Below, in pieces: positions 27,683 to 34,814 of a DNA stretch of 63,067 nt (positions are counted from its first letter, which is position 1; the number at the start of each line of letters is the position of its first letter). A model generated the notes under the pieces. It was not told where the DNA came from. It did no database searches and saw only the letters and a program-made list of their open reading frames with translations. The DNA is taken from assembly GCA_024638445.1 (NCBI GenBank), contig JAHEKH010000004.1:1-63067 (forward strand), in the 5' to 3' direction. This DNA is from Gammaproteobacteria bacterium (GTDB taxonomy: Bacteria > Pseudomonadota > Gammaproteobacteria > Steroidobacterales > JABDKV01). Both the position numbers and the translations under genes were made by a program.

Positions 27683-27857
27683 CCCCCGGGGCTTCGATCC
27701 CGATCCCGGCCCCTCGCCAGGCCAGCCCGATTCACCCCAAAAAACCGCCTTTCAGATGGCGAATTCCGTAGAGAAATTCTGAATTATTAGCAAAAACAAT
27801 CGCTTATGTCTTCGTTGCGATGCGGAACTTCGCCCACAAGACAGCATCCAACTATAA

Positions 27858-27982
27858 CGAGCGCCATCAACGACGCTCGCCCGCTACCCTCCCTGAGCGG
27901 GCAAGCGCCCGGCCACCCCATGCCGGGCAACAAGCTGCCCCGGTGCTATCCCCTACGTTTAAGGCACCGGGGCTCTTTTTTT
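27858..27982 (+). ncRNA. candidate structured RNA/leader: four consecutive hairpins, the last an intrinsic terminator
   Basis: CGAGCG(27858)/CGCTCG(27874); GCCCGCT(27879)/AGCGGGC(27896); GCCCGGC(27907)/GCCGGGC(27922); GCCCCGGTGC(27937)/GCACCGGGGC(27964) then a CTCTTTTTTT tract. Confidence 0.55.
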
Positions 27983-28105
27983 CCTGGTCCGCCGGGCACC
28001 CACCGCTGTTTCTTCAGCCGCTCTGGACCGCGTCCAGTCTCCGTCGACGAGCCGCATCGTCGTCTATGCTTTTTTGCAGGACGAGCCGATTGCAGGGAGG
28101 TCGAC

Positions 28106-31100
28106 ATGACACGCTCCGCACTGCCAGGGATAGTTGCGTTGGTTCTGCTTGGCACAGCCGCGCACGCCGATCACCCCAGTCCGTATCCGTGGACACTGTC
28201 TACCTCGGATTTCGATTACGACATTTTTTTTGATGCATCGAACCCCTACGATTGCTCCTCCGGGGACGATGTGCCGTCTAATGCCGACGGCAATTTCATT
28301 TCCGTCGCCACCGCACAATGGATGGCCAACGCGCTGGACCGTCAGGGCAATGCCGTGCCGGGCTTCCCCGACGGCTATCACCCCGGCTATGTGAATCTCG
28401 GCTTTAAGGCACCGGACTTCAACGGCGAGGATGACGAGGTGCTCGTGTACGACTGCGCGCCGCGCGAGGACGGGCCGCATGAAGACGACGACTGCGACAG
28501 CGGCCGTGCCACTTTTACGCGCATCATCATGCCGTCGACGCTTTTTTGCTCCTCGTCGGAGCGCAACGTGCGCCGGGTCATGGGCCACGAGCTGTGGCAC
28601 CACGTCGAGCAGGCCTACTCGGACAAGTTCGGCGAATGGGGGAAAGTGGCCTGGGAAGGTACCGCCCGCATGATGGAAGACCAGGTGTACGACGATATTG
28701 ACGGCGATGACACGCTGAGATTCGACAACGAGGTAAACGGCTACCTGGGTAATCCCAACCAGGAGTTCTGGCGCAGCTCTTATCGCTCCGCGCTGGGGTG
28801 GAAATACATGGCCGAGCAGTACGGCACGGTCACCACCGAGCCCCAGGTCGGCGTCGATTTCATCCGCCAGTTCTGGGAGAACGTCGAGGCAAACGACGAC
28901 ACACCGGATCTGCCGGGCACGATCGAGCAGACCATTCAGGACTTCTCACCCAACACCAGTCTGCGTGAGTGGTTTCACGATTTCACGACCGCCAATCTTG
29001 CCCAGCAGTATGATGCCAGCGGTCTGCCGGACGCCGACAAGTTCACCTATATCGACAACAACGACGGAAACGGCACTGCTTTCGCGCCGGTCGGCCGCAC
29101 GTGGACGGGCAGCATTTTCTCCGCCGACTCTGCCGTCTCGGCGGTCGTGCGTTGGGGAGCGTCTTACTATGAAGCCGAAGGGACGTGTATTCCCGGCTGG
29201 TTCATGGGCTACCGGGCGCGCAATGCTGACGACGCACGGCACGCGCTTGCCGCGGTAACGCTATCCGATGAGGTCGGGCGGCTGATACGGGGTGGTGGCG
29301 AGGAGTTTGCGGTCGCCTTCCTGCAGCCGGACCCACCACTGTACAACCGCCTGGTGGCCGGCATCACGGCAGGCGACGACCAGATCGCCTTCAGCTACGA
29401 GTTCGACTGCGGCCCGGGCAGCATCGATATCGCGCTGCCCACCAGCCTCTATCCGACCTTTGTCGGCCCGCCCGATGATCCCCGTAACCTGATCGTGCGG
29501 CTGCGGGTCAACGGCCCGGACGGGCTGGGCGGGGCCTCGGTCGTCGGCCTGCAGAAAGAGGACTTCCAGGTCTATGTCGGCACGCTCGGCAACCCGGCCG
29601 ATGAGGCACAGGTGGTCGGTGGACGCGACGTGCTCGGCGAGTACTGGATCACGGTCAAGCCACCGGCAAAGGGCAACACCAATACCTACGACTTGCACGT
29701 TTCCATGGGTGGCGGCGTGCTGAGCATCGACGACTCCAGCGCGAACTCGGTCAGCTATGAAGAGAAATTGCTGGACCAGGTACTGGTAATCGACCGCTCG
29801 GGCAGCATGATCGTGCCCGTCGATGCGACGAAGCTGGAGGCCGCACAGAATGCCGCCAGCCTGTTTGTCGATATCAGCGCGGAAACCGACCGCATCGGGC
29901 TGGTCAGCTTCAGCAGCAACGCGGTAACTGATGCCACCCTGTCCGACGCGACCGGCACGCACAAGGACACCGTCAAGACCAAGCTCGCGGCGCTTACCGC
30001 GGCCGGTGGCACGTCGATCGGTGACGGTCTGGACGAGGGTGCCGACCAGCTGTTCCTCAACGGCGTTGGCGCAGGCGAAGACTGGCTGGTGCTGCTGAGC
30101 GACGGCGTCGAAACCGACCAGCTGTTCTGGGACAACGTCCAGGCCGGCATCGTCGCCCAGGGCGTGCGGATCAACACGATCGCGCTCGGCGCCGATGCCG
30201 ACCAGGTCCTGCTGCAGGATATCGCCAACACCACCGGCGGACAGTTTTACTTCGTCGACGCCAACAGCTTCCGCGGCGGTAGCGCCAGCGTTGCCAACGA
30301 ACTGGCCGACGTCTATGCCTCGAACCTTGAGGCCATGCGCGGTCATGAACGGCTGTGGGAAGTCTCCGGCCACCTGTTGACGGAAACCTCATTCGACATC
30401 GAGATCGAGGGCGACGGTCTCTCCGACATCAACCTGTTTTTCAACTGGGAGGATGCCGACGACACGCTCGACGTGGAAATCCTGCGCCCCGACGGCACGC
30501 CGGTCACTGACGGATCGAATGGCGCGAGCGTGGTCCACGAGGCCACCCACGTGGTGACGCAGCTGCCGGTGATGACCGCCGGCACCTGGACCGTAAATCT
30601 CACCGCCGATACCGGCTCGCCGCGCTACATAGGCATTCTCTCCGGTCGCGACACCCAGGGGCCGGAGCTCACCGTCCAGTTTGCACAGAACGATGATGAC
30701 GTGTTCTCCGAGATCGTCGGCGGCTACTACCTGCGTGGATTGCCGCAGCCGATCACTGCCACCCTGATCGATGACACCGGGGCGGTGACCGGCGCGCGGG
30801 TGCTCGCCTCCATAGAGCACCCCGATGGCACCGTCATCGACCTGCGGCTGTCGGACGACGGACTGCATGGCGATGGCGCGGCCAACGACGGGATCTATGC
30901 CAACCGTTATACCCGCACGACGGCATTCAGCTTGCCCGATCAGCCCGATGCACCGGGCAGCGGCTCACGCGGCAGCTACAACGTCAGCGTGACCGCCGGT
31001 GGCACGGACAACAACCAGAACGTGTTCAACCGGATTCGCAAAGGCACTTTCCAGGTGCTCGAGCTCGACGGCCTGAAGCCGGGAGCCGACCCGTCGGACG

Positions 31101-32527
31101 GCGACATGGACGGCATGCCGGATCGCTACGAGGTGCTGCACGACTGCCTCGACCCGGTCGTCGACGACGCCGCCGCGGATGAAGACCAGAACGGCATAAC
31201 CAACCTCGACGAGTACGAGGCGGGATTCGATCCCTGCCACCCCGACACGGACCGCGGCGGGGAATCCGACGTCTCGGAGCGAACGCGGGGCGCCAACCCG
31301 TTCGACCCGATCGATGACTTTCTGCCGCGGCTGATCGACGTCGAAATCGTGGACTACGTCTCCGAGCACCTCGACTTTCCGCGTGCCGATGACCTGCAGC
31401 CGAACTCGCTGCTGATCCGTTACCAGCTCAAACCCCAGTATCACCAGATGCGCCTGCTGCGCCGGTCGTTCGGTCCCACTTTTACCGAGGTGGCGGTATT
31501 CGACCCCCATGCCGAGGGCGGTCTGTATCGCGACACCGGGCTGATCAACAATATTCTTTACGAGTACCGGTTACAGCCGATCGATATCAACGGTTTCGAG
31601 GGAACGCCGAGCCACATCATCTCTGGCGTACCAAAGCTCGACCCGGTACCGCCGATCGGCAGCGTGCTGATCAACCACGGTCAACAGACGACTACCGGCA
31701 CACTCGTCAACCTGTCCCTGTCGGCATCGGCCGGAACTACCGAAGTCAAGATTTCCAACGACCCGAACCTCGACGATGACACCTGGGACGTCTTCGATAG
31801 CCCCTTTATCTCCTGGGGTGTCGATCCCGATCCCGTCAGCGGCGAGGCAACCGTCTACGTGCAATACCGCGACGGCGCCGGCAACGTTTCGCCCAGCGTC
31901 TACGAAGATTCGATAACCGTGGTGGACGGTAACGCCGTTGGCACGATAACCGGCAATGTCTATCTGGGTGCCGCCCGGGGCGGCCCGGTCCCCGCCGAGG
32001 GCATCACCCTCGTGCCGGATGGCCCCGGCGACAACTGGCCCGAGTTCACGCGCTCAAACGGCTTCTACGTGATTCGCAACCTCGAGCCCGGCACGTATGA
32101 CCTCACCGCGCACTACCCGAACTACGAGTCAGAGACCCTATCCGGCGTGGTGGTCGTGCAAAACGGTACAACCAGCTTGCGTGACATCATTCTCGGCGCG
32201 GCCGATACCGATGGCGACGGCGTCGCCGACATCGCAGATAACTGCAGCCTGGAGGCAAATAACCGCCAGCACGACACCGACGCCGACGGCTTTGGCAACG
32301 CCTGCGATCTCGACCTGAACAACGACTGCACCGTCAATTTCCTCGATCTCTCCATGTTCGAGACAGTGTTCTTCACCAGCGATCCCGATGCCGACACAAA
32401 CCAGGACGGCACGGTGAACTTCCTCGACCTGATCGTCATGGAGCAATTGTTCTTTGGCCCACCCGGCCCGAGCGGGATTCCGACCGTCTGCGATCAAGCG
32501 GGGCACGCCGACCGACCGCACCACTAG
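28106..32527 (+). CDS. large secreted protein: HExxH metalloprotease-like N-terminus, VWA domain, regulatory beta-domain, TSP3/dockerin-like C-terminus
   Basis: Signal peptide MTRSALPGIVALVLLGTAAHA; VMGHELWHHVEQAY (28586-28600); VLVIDRSGSMIVPVDATKLEAAQNAA; GTITGNVYLG...GFYVIRNLEPGTYDLTAHYPNY; DTDGDGVADIADNC and DLNNDCTVNFLDLSMF repeats. Confidence 0.85.
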   Translation: MTRSALPGIVALVLLGTAAHADHPSPYPWTLSTSDFDYDIFFDASNPYDCSSGDDVPSNADGNFISVATAQWMANALDRQGNAVPGFPDGYHPGYVNLGFKAPDFNGEDDEVLVYDCAPREDGPHEDDDCDSGRATFTRIIMPSTLFCSSSERNVRRVMGHELWHHVEQAYSDKFGEWGKVAWEGTARMMEDQVYDDIDGDDTLRFDNEVNGYLGNPNQEFWRSSYRSALGWKYMAEQYGTVTTEPQVGVDFIRQFWENVEANDDTPDLPGTIEQTIQDFSPNTSLREWFHDFTTANLAQQYDASGLPDADKFTYIDNNDGNGTAFAPVGRTWTGSIFSADSAVSAVVRWGASYYEAEGTCIPGWFMGYRARNADDARHALAAVTLSDEVGRLIRGGGEEFAVAFLQPDPPLYNRLVAGITAGDDQIAFSYEFDCGPGSIDIALPTSLYPTFVGPPDDPRNLIVRLRVNGPDGLGGASVVGLQKEDFQVYVGTLGNPADEAQVVGGRDVLGEYWITVKPPAKGNTNTYDLHVSMGGGVLSIDDSSANSVSYEEKLLDQVLVIDRSGSMIVPVDATKLEAAQNAASLFVDISAETDRIGLVSFSSNAVTDATLSDATGTHKDTVKTKLAALTAAGGTSIGDGLDEGADQLFLNGVGAGEDWLVLLSDGVETDQLFWDNVQAGIVAQGVRINTIALGADADQVLLQDIANTTGGQFYFVDANSFRGGSASVANELADVYASNLEAMRGHERLWEVSGHLLTETSFDIEIEGDGLSDINLFFNWEDADDTLDVEILRPDGTPVTDGSNGASVVHEATHVVTQLPVMTAGTWTVNLTADTGSPRYIGILSGRDTQGPELTVQFAQNDDDVFSEIVGGYYLRGLPQPITATLIDDTGAVTGARVLASIEHPDGTVIDLRLSDDGLHGDGAANDGIYANRYTRTTAFSLPDQPDAPGSGSRGSYNVSVTAGGTDNNQNVFNRIRKGTFQVLELDGLKPGADPSDGDMDGMPDRYEVLHDCLDPVVDDAAADEDQNGITNLDEYEAGFDPCHPDTDRGGESDVSERTRGANPFDPIDDFLPRLIDVEIVDYVSEHLDFPRADDLQPNSLLIRYQLKPQYHQMRLLRRSFGPTFTEVAVFDPHAEGGLYRDTGLINNILYEYRLQPIDINGFEGTPSHIISGVPKLDPVPPIGSVLINHGQQTTTGTLVNLSLSASAGTTEVKISNDPNLDDDTWDVFDSPFISWGVDPDPVSGEATVYVQYRDGAGNVSPSVYEDSITVVDGNAVGTITGNVYLGAARGGPVPAEGITLVPDGPGDNWPEFTRSNGFYVIRNLEPGTYDLTAHYPNYESETLSGVVVVQNGTTSLRDIILGAADTDGDGVADIADNCSLEANNRQHDTDADGFGNACDLDLNNDCTVNFLDLSMFETVFFTSDPDADTNQDGTVNFLDLIVMEQLFFGPPGPSGIPTVCDQAGHADRPHH

Positions 32528-32538
32528 GGGAAACAAAG

Positions 32539-33483
32539 ATCGCGGCTGGAAGCCGCTGCTACGGCCTTATTCGCCAAAGCCTAAGCGAGAGAGCTGCCGG
32601 TGCCTTTCTTTGATGACGTCAGATCCTCGGCACCAAAGAGAGGTGCCGGCAGATCGCTCGCGCAATCTCGCAATCAATGAACACTGTGCGGACTTCACCC
32701 CAGCGGCGAAACCGGGGAATCGCGGCTGGAAGCCGCTGCTACGGCCTTATTCGCCAAAGCCTAAGCGAGAGAGCTGCCGGTGCCTTTCTTTGGTGACGTC
32801 AGATCCTCGGCACCAAAGAGAGGTGCCGGCAGATCGCTCGCGCAATCTCGCAATCAATGAACACTGTGCGGACTTCACCCCAGCGGCGAAACCGGGGAAT
32901 CGCGGCTGGAAGCCGCTGCTACGGCCTTATTCGCCAAAGCCTAAGCGAGAGAGCTGCCGGTGCCTTTCTTTGATGACGTCAGATCCTCGGCAGCAATGAA
33001 AGGTACCGGCAGATCGCTCGCGCAATCTCGGAACAAATCCTAAGGGATCGCGGCTGATAGCCGCTCCTGCGCCGGTCGTAATCGCGATGACCTCAGCGAG
33101 AGAGCTGTCGGTGCCTTTTCTTGATGACGTCAGATCCTCGGCAGCAAGAAAAGGTGCCGGCAGATCGCTCGCGCAATCTCGGAACAAATCCTAAGGGATC
33201 GCGGCTGATAGCCGCTCCTGCGCCGGTCGTAATCGCGATGACCTCAGCGAGAGAGCTGTCGGTGCCTTTTCTTGATGACGTCAGATCCTCGGCAGCAAGA
33301 AAAGGTGCCGGCAGATCACTCGCGCAATCTCGGAACAAAGCCCAAGGGATCGCGGCTGCCAGCCACTCCCGCGCCGGTCGTAATCACGATGGCCTCAGCG
33401 AGAGAGCTGCCGGTGCCTTTCTTTGATGACGTCAGATCCTCGGCACCAAAGAGAGGTGCCGGCAGATCGCTCGCGCAATCTAG
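32539..33483. repeat. six tandem ~180/~151 bp repeats, each with a REP-like GCGGCT hairpin and a long imperfect hairpin
   Basis: Units start at about 32539, 32719, 32899, 33047, 33198 and 33349; each has GCGAG-agag-CTGCCGGTGCC...TGACGTCA...GGTGCCGGCAG-atcg-CTCGC. Units 1-3 are spaced 180 bp; units 4-6 are spaced 151 bp. Confidence 0.95.
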
Positions 33484-33508: not shown

Positions 33509-34096
33509 TCAGAGCCCCATCATGCGGGCGAGGGTGGCGCGGGCCTCACCGACGCCCTGCTTCGAGTGTGCCGAAAAGAGCTGCGCGGTGACGGTGTCGC
33601 CCAACTCGCGGCGCACGCCGAGCAGCGTGCTGGCGGCCTTGCCCCGGCTGAGCTTGTCCGCCTTCGTCAGCAACGCGTGCACCGGGCAGTCATAGGCCAA
33701 CGCCCAGTCCAGCATCCGCTCGTCGAATTCCGTCAGCGGCCGCCGCACGTCCATCACCAGGAACAACCCCTCGAGGCTGCGCCGCCGGCTGAAATAGGCC
33801 TCCATGAGCACCCGCCAGTGCCGCCGCATCTTTTCCGGCACCTTGGCATAGCCATAGCCCGGCAGGTCCACCAGCCGGTGCGACCCGTCAATCTCGAAAA
33901 AGTTGATCAGCTGCGTGCGGCCTGGCGTCTTGCTGATCCGGGCCAGCTGCTTCTGCCCCGCAATGACGTTGATCGCGCTGGATTTCCCGGCATTCGAGCG
34001 GCCGGCGAAGGCCACCTCCAGACCCTTGTCGGGCAGGAAATCGCCCGGTTGCCAGGCACTCTGCAGAAAACGGGCTTTCTGGAAGGGATTCGACAT
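33509..34096 (-). CDS. engB: ribosome biogenesis GTP-binding protein YihA/YsxC
   Basis: [58 protein letters not shown]. Confidence 0.96.
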
Positions 34097-34211
34097 ATCG
34101 GCTTCAGTTCCGGTCCCGGGGCGCGATAAACCGCCTCGATAGTGTAAAATCTCGCGGCCCGCGGCGGGGCGGCAGTCTATCGCCTCCATGCCGCATTGGA
34201 AAGGAGCTCGC

Positions 34212-34814
34212 ATGATCAGGACTGCTGCAGTAATTGGATTGACGTTTTGCCTCACCGCCACCGGCTGGGCCGAGGGCGACCCCGAGGCTGGTCAGGCCAA
34301 GGCAACGCCCTGTGCGGCCTGCCATGGTGCCGACGGTAACAGCGTCAATCCCGAGTGGCCGAGCATCGCCGGTCAGCACGCGGGCTATATCGTCAAGCAG
34401 CTGGAAGCGTACAAGAACGGCGACCGGGTCAACGCCCTGATGACCGCGATGGCCATGCCGCTGGACGACCAGGACCGCGCCGACCTCGCGGCCTATTATT
34501 CCAGCCAGTCGTTGACCCCGAAGACCGCGGACCCCGAGCTGGCGGAAGCCGGCGAGAAGCTGTACCGCGGCGGCAACCCGGCAACTGGCGTCGCCGCCTG
34601 CACCGCCTGTCACGGACCCACCGGGCGCGGCGTCCCCGGCGCGATGATGCCCCGCATTGCCGGCCAGCACGCAGCCTACAGCGCCATGCAGCTGAAACTC
34701 TATGCTGCCGGCGAGCGAAGCACCGACAAGGACCAGATGATGCGAAACGTCGCGTCGGCTATGAGCGAAGCCGAGATCGCGGCAGTTTCGGCCTATATTC
34801 AGGGACTTCGCTAA
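34212..34814 (+). CDS. diheme cytochrome c4
   Basis: Signal peptide; two CxxCH sites ([22 protein letters not shown]) in duplicated domains with [20 protein letters not shown]. Confidence 0.94.

Follow-up and report, generated by a model that had tools for sequence, protein, structure and literature searches.

A genus-specific composite repeat of REP-type and long covarying hairpins, oriented with GC skew and arrayed in tandem in a gammaproteobacterial genome

The six-unit tandem array at positions 32539-33483 of the window (the whole 63,067-nt stretch of DNA analysed) was found to carry members of a family of long hairpins (LHs), which is best read as a genus-specific, non-coding composite repeat of the REP/BIME kind, and whose mechanism we infer. 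High copy number, covariation of the arms, strand asymmetry of the fold, a fixed orientation of REP and LH, polarity relative to GC skew and, in the genomes searched, restriction to one genus were all observed. We give about half of our confidence to the proposal that the array arose by local amplification of this REP + LH repeat, acting as single-stranded DNA at the replication fork.

Each of the six head-to-tail units consists of a REP-type mini-hairpin and a 77-nt LH (Table 1). Re-examination bore out what a sequence-only reading of the window had described, namely six units, each with a REP-type hairpin and a long inverted repeat, and variation of the arms as stated there. The unit length of 151 bp given in that reading applies to the later units, whereas units 1 and 2 measure 180 bp, the start-to-start spacings of the LHs being 180, 180, 151, 151 and 151 bases. 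The REP-type hairpin reads GCGGCTggaAGCCGC in units 1-3 and GCGGCTgatAGCCGC in units 4-5, and is degenerate in unit 6 (GCGGCTgccAGCCAC). Complementarity of the CTTTCTTTG/CAAAGAGAG arm pair is imperfect, with one T.G wobble. LHs of the array folded far better than their dinucleotide shuffles (z of -7.2 and -6.3), none of 200 shuffles being equally good. Inside the window itself, the covariation is that of two arm variants. The 1573-aa product of the upstream gene appears, by eye, to contain a von Willebrand-like part and a dockerin-like C-terminal repeat. For the downstream gene, positions 33509-34072 served as the core of the EngB-type query. In three sister genomes the engB 3′ flank is without an LH and holds instead a segment that reads like the reversed end of polA; the engB neighbourhood of the host is rearranged relative to these genomes. 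Elsewhere in the window, a 29-bp sequence is repeated in tandem 2.9 times (754-841).

Table 1. Features of the array and of the adjoining genes, in window coordinates
Feature	Position	Strand
Upstream convergent gene, 1573-aa secreted-type protein (context)	27806..32527	+
REP hairpin, unit 1	32542..32556	+ (REP tag strand = - strand)
LH, unit 1	32585..32661	+
REP hairpin, unit 2	32722..32736	+
LH, unit 2	32765..32841	+
REP hairpin, unit 3	32902..32916	+
LH, unit 3, one arm mismatch	32945..33021	+
REP hairpin, unit 4 (GCGGCTgatAGCCGC)	33050..33064	+
LH, unit 4, arms CTTTTCTTG/CAAGAAAAG	33096..33172	+
REP hairpin, unit 5	33201..33215	+
LH, unit 5	33247..33323	+
Degenerate REP hairpin, unit 6 (GCGGCTgccAGCCAC)	33352..33366	+
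LH, unit 6	33398..33474	+
Downstream convergent gene, EngB/YihA-type GTPase (by sequence reading)	33509..34261 (ORF as listed)	-

The array is one of many in the host genome (G000; 3.04 Mb in 208 contigs, 82% complete). A search with the unit returned more than a hundred pieces, spread over some 40 places, and profile searches defined 81 non-overlapping stretches, a few remnants included. A covariance model (R1) added about 8 copies, bringing the total to about 86 LHs, distributed over some 45 intergenic places, so that confinement of the copies to the window, which the sequence-only reading had named as evidence against itself, did not occur. The true number is probably higher, since many arrays stop at contig ends. 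Array spacings across the genome ranged from 121 to 194 bases. LHs were 94% identical within an array and 89% identical between arrays, and 22 pairs of identical cores were found at different loci; therefore, both local amplification and dispersal occur. In the flanks of four loci (L060, L037, L048 and L069), derivatives such as AGCGAGAGAGCTCGCGCAATC and AGCGAGAGAGCTGTCGGTGCCTCGCGC, which have lost the hairpin, adjoin intact LHs, as expected for slippage deletion of palindromes. Searches of plasmid, phage and viral collections for LH copies gave no match.

The compensatory arm changes noted within the array proved to be a general property of the family. Among 56 distinct host copies, compared over 33 pairs, 14 pairs had changed on both sides, and cells with changes on both sides numbered 93, whereas shuffles gave 26 and slid structures 4-37. 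In a tree-aware null, in which the same substitutions were redistributed over columns, 0.7 double compensatory events were expected on average (maximum of 5 in 200 replicates), whereas 16 were counted on the tree. A single long branch, which leads to two diverged copies, accounts for part of these 16. In the genus-wide alignment, 17 of the 21 pairs had changed on both sides, with 19 double events spread over 16 branches, against 0.8 in the tree-aware null. A lack of significant covariation in a wider alignment, the other outcome held to count against the earlier reading, was thus not seen. The tree-aware test has little power per pair; E < 0.05 was reached by 2 of the 33 single pairs in the host set and by 0 of 21 in the genus set. 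Covariance E-values are rough.

Diverged LHs were detected, using R1 and a genus-level model (R2), only in the three other genomes of the genus (G001, G002 and G003). BLASTN with the unit, as the sequence-only reading had advised, recovered many pieces in the host genome and missed the diverged copies in 58 relatives, for which a covariance model was needed. No LH was found by R1/R2 in 392 further genomes of the order and 368 others from the class, in scans whose filters may lose weak matches. The genomes are incomplete drafts, and the named sister records are MAGs. Two elements are kept across the genus: the tip GACU...CGGA, with the potential for tandem G.A pairing, and the outer GCGAG/CTCGC, the latter in most copies. 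The remaining arm sequence is hypervariable, yet complementary, as both sides vary. In one G001 copy the arms form a perfect palindrome around the tip, 34 bp long and 100% complementary. The TGACGTCA palindrome, previously called invariant, is present in all six units of the array, but belongs to one host subfamily, and is absent from other host copies and from all relatives. A first pattern scan of a genome collection that possibly lacks the host genome gave no match; a scan with the tip pattern returned the sister MAGs JAOTXU and JAOTXR, together with three chance-like matches (in Lachnospiraceae, Ruegeria and a deltaproteobacterium), none of which continues as a long stem. A weak covariance match in G003 (L138) was dropped, its arms being mispaired and its sequence coding-like. 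Inside three G002 LH units (L139, L145 and L147) are C-rich/G-rich stretches of the CCCTCNCCC...GGGNGAGGG kind, which resemble a reported bacterial intrastrand triplex motif (PMC4666352).

The LH fold is asymmetric between strands. With RNA parameters, the + strand gives the better fold of the two in 54 of 56 host copies and in 21/21 copies of relatives; with DNA parameters, the corresponding counts are 55 of 56 and 20 of 21. G.T pairs exceed A.C mismatches by 165:14 cells in the host and by 39:3 in relatives. Counted as branch events, the skew is only 25:13 in the host (p 0.07) and 14:2 in the genus (p 0.004), so a few fixed wobbles supply most of the G.T cell count; the tandem wobble TG/TG is retained in about 50 of the 56 host copies. 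Strand-symmetric change, or correction of one arm by the other, would predict no such skew. As to whether selection or a copying mechanism maintains the structure, a choice left undecided by the sequence-only reading, the fixed G.T wobbles and the strand asymmetry favour selection on one single strand, and near-perfect young palindromes show that one arm may also be copied from the other.

The small hairpin is of the GGAGCGGCTTCCAGCCGCGAT type on the - strand, with the perfect stem and the GGAG tag of a REP. It was assigned to the REPs as a short palindrome with a GTAG/GGAG-like 5′ tag in many intergenic copies. Exact copies of the REP core number 17 in the host and 114 in G003, compared with 0-1 for a reversed-pattern control. 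At the threshold used, a REP-like hairpin flanks 65% of host LHs upstream and 55% downstream. All of these flanking REPs are in the orientation of the LH (44/44 upstream and 38/38 downstream), as they are in relatives at the strictest threshold (11/11 and 15/15). The REPs around an LH therefore stand in direct rather than inverted order (82/82 in the host), and no REP was found inside the LH arms. The search for a RAYT, also proposed in the earlier reading, succeeded in sister genomes, where a cognate RAYT (REP_Tyr_transpos) is flanked by the same REP (G002:C12, G003:C43 and G003:C58); none was found in the host assembly, which is 82% complete. The sole RAYT-like Y1 protein of the host (G000:C172:19291-19938, equal to L098:7292-7939) matches NF047646 with 67 bits at a cut-off of 80, and is flanked by ggtcggacc/ggtccgacc-ended repeats, which constitute a second REP/TIR-like system, separate from the GCGGCT REP. 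With seven RAYT-like matches and more than 100 exact REPs, many of the latter in tandem arrays, G003 far exceeds its sister genomes. No LH was found near any RAYT examined.

Genes around the arrays were called with a simple codon-usage gene finder and are approximate; of the 25 arrays with both neighbours called, 14 lie between convergent, 10 between tandem and 1 between divergent genes. In tandem contexts the LH is co-directional with the genes at four places and opposite to them at six. GC skew was used as a stand-in for replication direction. When the array and the adjoining 400 bases on either side were left out, 37 of 40 host loci had a negative skew on the LH + strand, as did the two flanks taken separately (5′, 26/28; 3′, 30/33). 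At third codon positions the skew is -0.20 where genes are co-directional and -0.01 where they are opposite, values that separate into about -0.105 due to strand and about -0.10 due to coding. Seven further places in the host and 27 of 31 in relatives agree in polarity. Across four species, the better-folding + strand coincides with the G-poor strand at 73 of the 78 places; the data thus suggest that the arrays are oriented by replication and not by transcription, with GC skew taken as the marker of replication direction. Independently of skew, distant LHs on the same contig share one orientation on six contigs (C122, C140 (68 kb), C165 and C192, and C34 and C39 of G002). Single solo REPs have no clear orientation bias (6/8 in the host, with a mean skew of -0.001, and 2/7 in G003), so the REP alone does not explain the polarity; tandem REP arrays in G003 are oriented in 13 of 14 cases.

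The leading strand is usually G-rich, and the + strand would thus have the sense of the nascent lagging strand, placing the REP tag strand on the lagging-strand template. Elements of the IS200/IS605 family use the lagging-strand template (PMC6006769). In Pseudomonas fluorescens SBW25, the passages on REP tandem arrays in PMC3116915 describe a forward orientation near 2 Mb and a reverse orientation near 4 Mb; these orientations would fit replication polarity, a link between orientation and replication strand not being drawn in those passages.

In the mechanism that we favour, a REP palindrome and an LH, joined in fixed relative orientation, would form a BIME/MITE-like unit. This unit may spread to intergenic sites, for the most part those flanked by convergent genes, and then multiply there in tandem. 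Its spread or retention would proceed through single-stranded DNA at the replication fork, the single strand being the putative functional state. The GGAG-tagged REP hairpin strand would lie on the lagging-strand template, as processed by IS200/IS605-type transposases, with the better-folding LH strand opposite. A RAYT-type enzyme, such as those beside the same REP in sister species, is the candidate mover. The polarity may originate from insertion, or from the deletion of copies whose stronger hairpin lies on the lagging template. More tentatively, and as one possibility among several, the LH may represent an undescribed class of replication-polar DNA hairpins, in which a fixed apical GACU...CGGA (tandem G.A) on a hypervariable self-complementary stem is read in one strand by a putative single-strand-DNA factor, and which is carried with REPs as a composite mobile unit of one genus.

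The same observations can be read in other ways. If the LH were a structured RNA, at mRNA 3′ ends or as a small RNA, then the G.U pairs, the tandem G.A tip and the covariation would reflect RNA function, and the better folding of the + strand as RNA, the retained wobbles and the genus-wide conservation of the tip are in keeping with this. However, DNA parameters yield the same strand asymmetry, some copies lie, by reading, past the terminator-like hairpin of the upstream gene, and orientation tracks GC skew and ignores transcription. The last point led to the rejection of RNA in 3′ UTRs as the main reading, and leaves the regulatory RNA role considered earlier unsupported. No Rfam family match reached its gathering score, and a known Rfam RNA was rejected: the best match scored 37 bits against a gathering score of 268, and the sub-threshold matches were mostly to animal or plant miRNA precursors, as any long hairpin would give. 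An RNA function is, overall, rather unlikely. The polarity could also be one of survivorship, in which copies are deleted if their stronger-folding strand is on the lagging template, leaving one orientation, and the element spreads by ordinary recombination and slippage, with no strand-specific mobility. Of the five wrongly oriented places, three are among the 17 with near-symmetric hairpins and two among the 61 with asymmetric ones (p 0.066), and hairpin-deletion derivatives adjoin several arrays, as this explanation would have it. Against it, strand asymmetry and orientation are not correlated overall (Spearman 0.16, p 0.17), and reaching some 45 places requires some mobility, which makes survivorship improbable as a full account.

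Template switching during replication (quasipalindrome correction) could by itself maintain arm complementarity, with no hairpin function or selection. It is a reported route by which hairpins with multi-base compensatory changes are created and maintained (PMC8794818), and the perfect G001 palindrome, in which the same tip is enclosed by arms of new sequence, speaks for it. It is doubtful as the sole cause: the TG/TG tandem wobble has been kept rather than corrected, the excess of G.T over A.C mismatches lies on one strand (clearly so by branch events in the genus, only weakly in the host), and strand polarity, tip conservation and REP linkage are left unexplained. An integron attC site is a far more remote candidate, suggested by long folded hairpins in tandem and by the presence of integron integrases in G001 and G002, one G001 LH being on the same contig as an integrase. 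The attC sites of the genus are separate and canonical (CGCCTAAC...GTTAGGCGG, five copies beside the G002 intI) and unlike the LH, which is without R′/R″ motifs (RYYYAAC...GTTRRRY) and occurs at about 45 dispersed places without cassettes; the best host match to an integrase model spans 61 of 315 positions and is below the cut-off. Membership of the attC class was therefore refuted. The G002 integron (L223:114-4667; G002:C42) has five canonical attC sites and an integrase frame with one internal TAA, and a near-complete intI stands at a contig end in G001 (L222).

Set beside known systems, the composite repeat shares with REP/RAYT a small hairpin with a GGAG tag and a perfect stem, found beside REP_Tyr_transpos genes in sister genomes, and an intergenic location that is mostly 3′ of genes; the LH differs in being without a tag, several times longer and not found beside RAYTs. 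The REP/BIME comparison made in the sequence-only reading holds for composition: as in BIMEs and REPINs, REPs and other modules form a mosaic in tandem arrays (PMC3116915, PMC8266576). Passages of the same two papers report compensatory changes on both sides of a long hairpin in REPIN spacers. The canonical unit consists of two inverted REPs, whereas the REPs here are direct and enclose the hairpin as a module of its own; assignment of the whole unit to the canonical REPIN/BIME was rejected, as the flanking REPs are direct and the hairpin arms contain no REP. With IS200/IS605 the repeat shares a strand-specific folded DNA and an apparent lagging-strand-template polarity (PMC6006769), but the LH element is without a transposase. 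Strand-biased folding, hypervariable stems and tandem arrays recall attC sites, from which the LH differs in that the genus has separate canonical attC sites that do not resemble it. ERIC, Correia/NEMIS, YPAL and BOX are short, dispersed, non-coding, foldable and MITE-like intergenic repeats. The LH repeat is likewise short, dispersed, foldable and intergenic, but its arms are hypervariable around a conserved tip and its orientation appears to follow replication. In a comparison with MITEs of known IS, the LH arms were not conserved in sequence.

The way in which REP-type repeats spread remains a matter of debate, and little direct genomic evidence ties it to replication. In the LH family, each genome contributes dozens of dispersed copies that have a strand-specific fold, a fixed REP partner and, in four species, a near-absolute GC-skew polarity; insertion bias can therefore be distinguished from deletion bias. 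The family also presents compensatory changes, usually taken as proof of RNA structure, in what is probably a DNA element.
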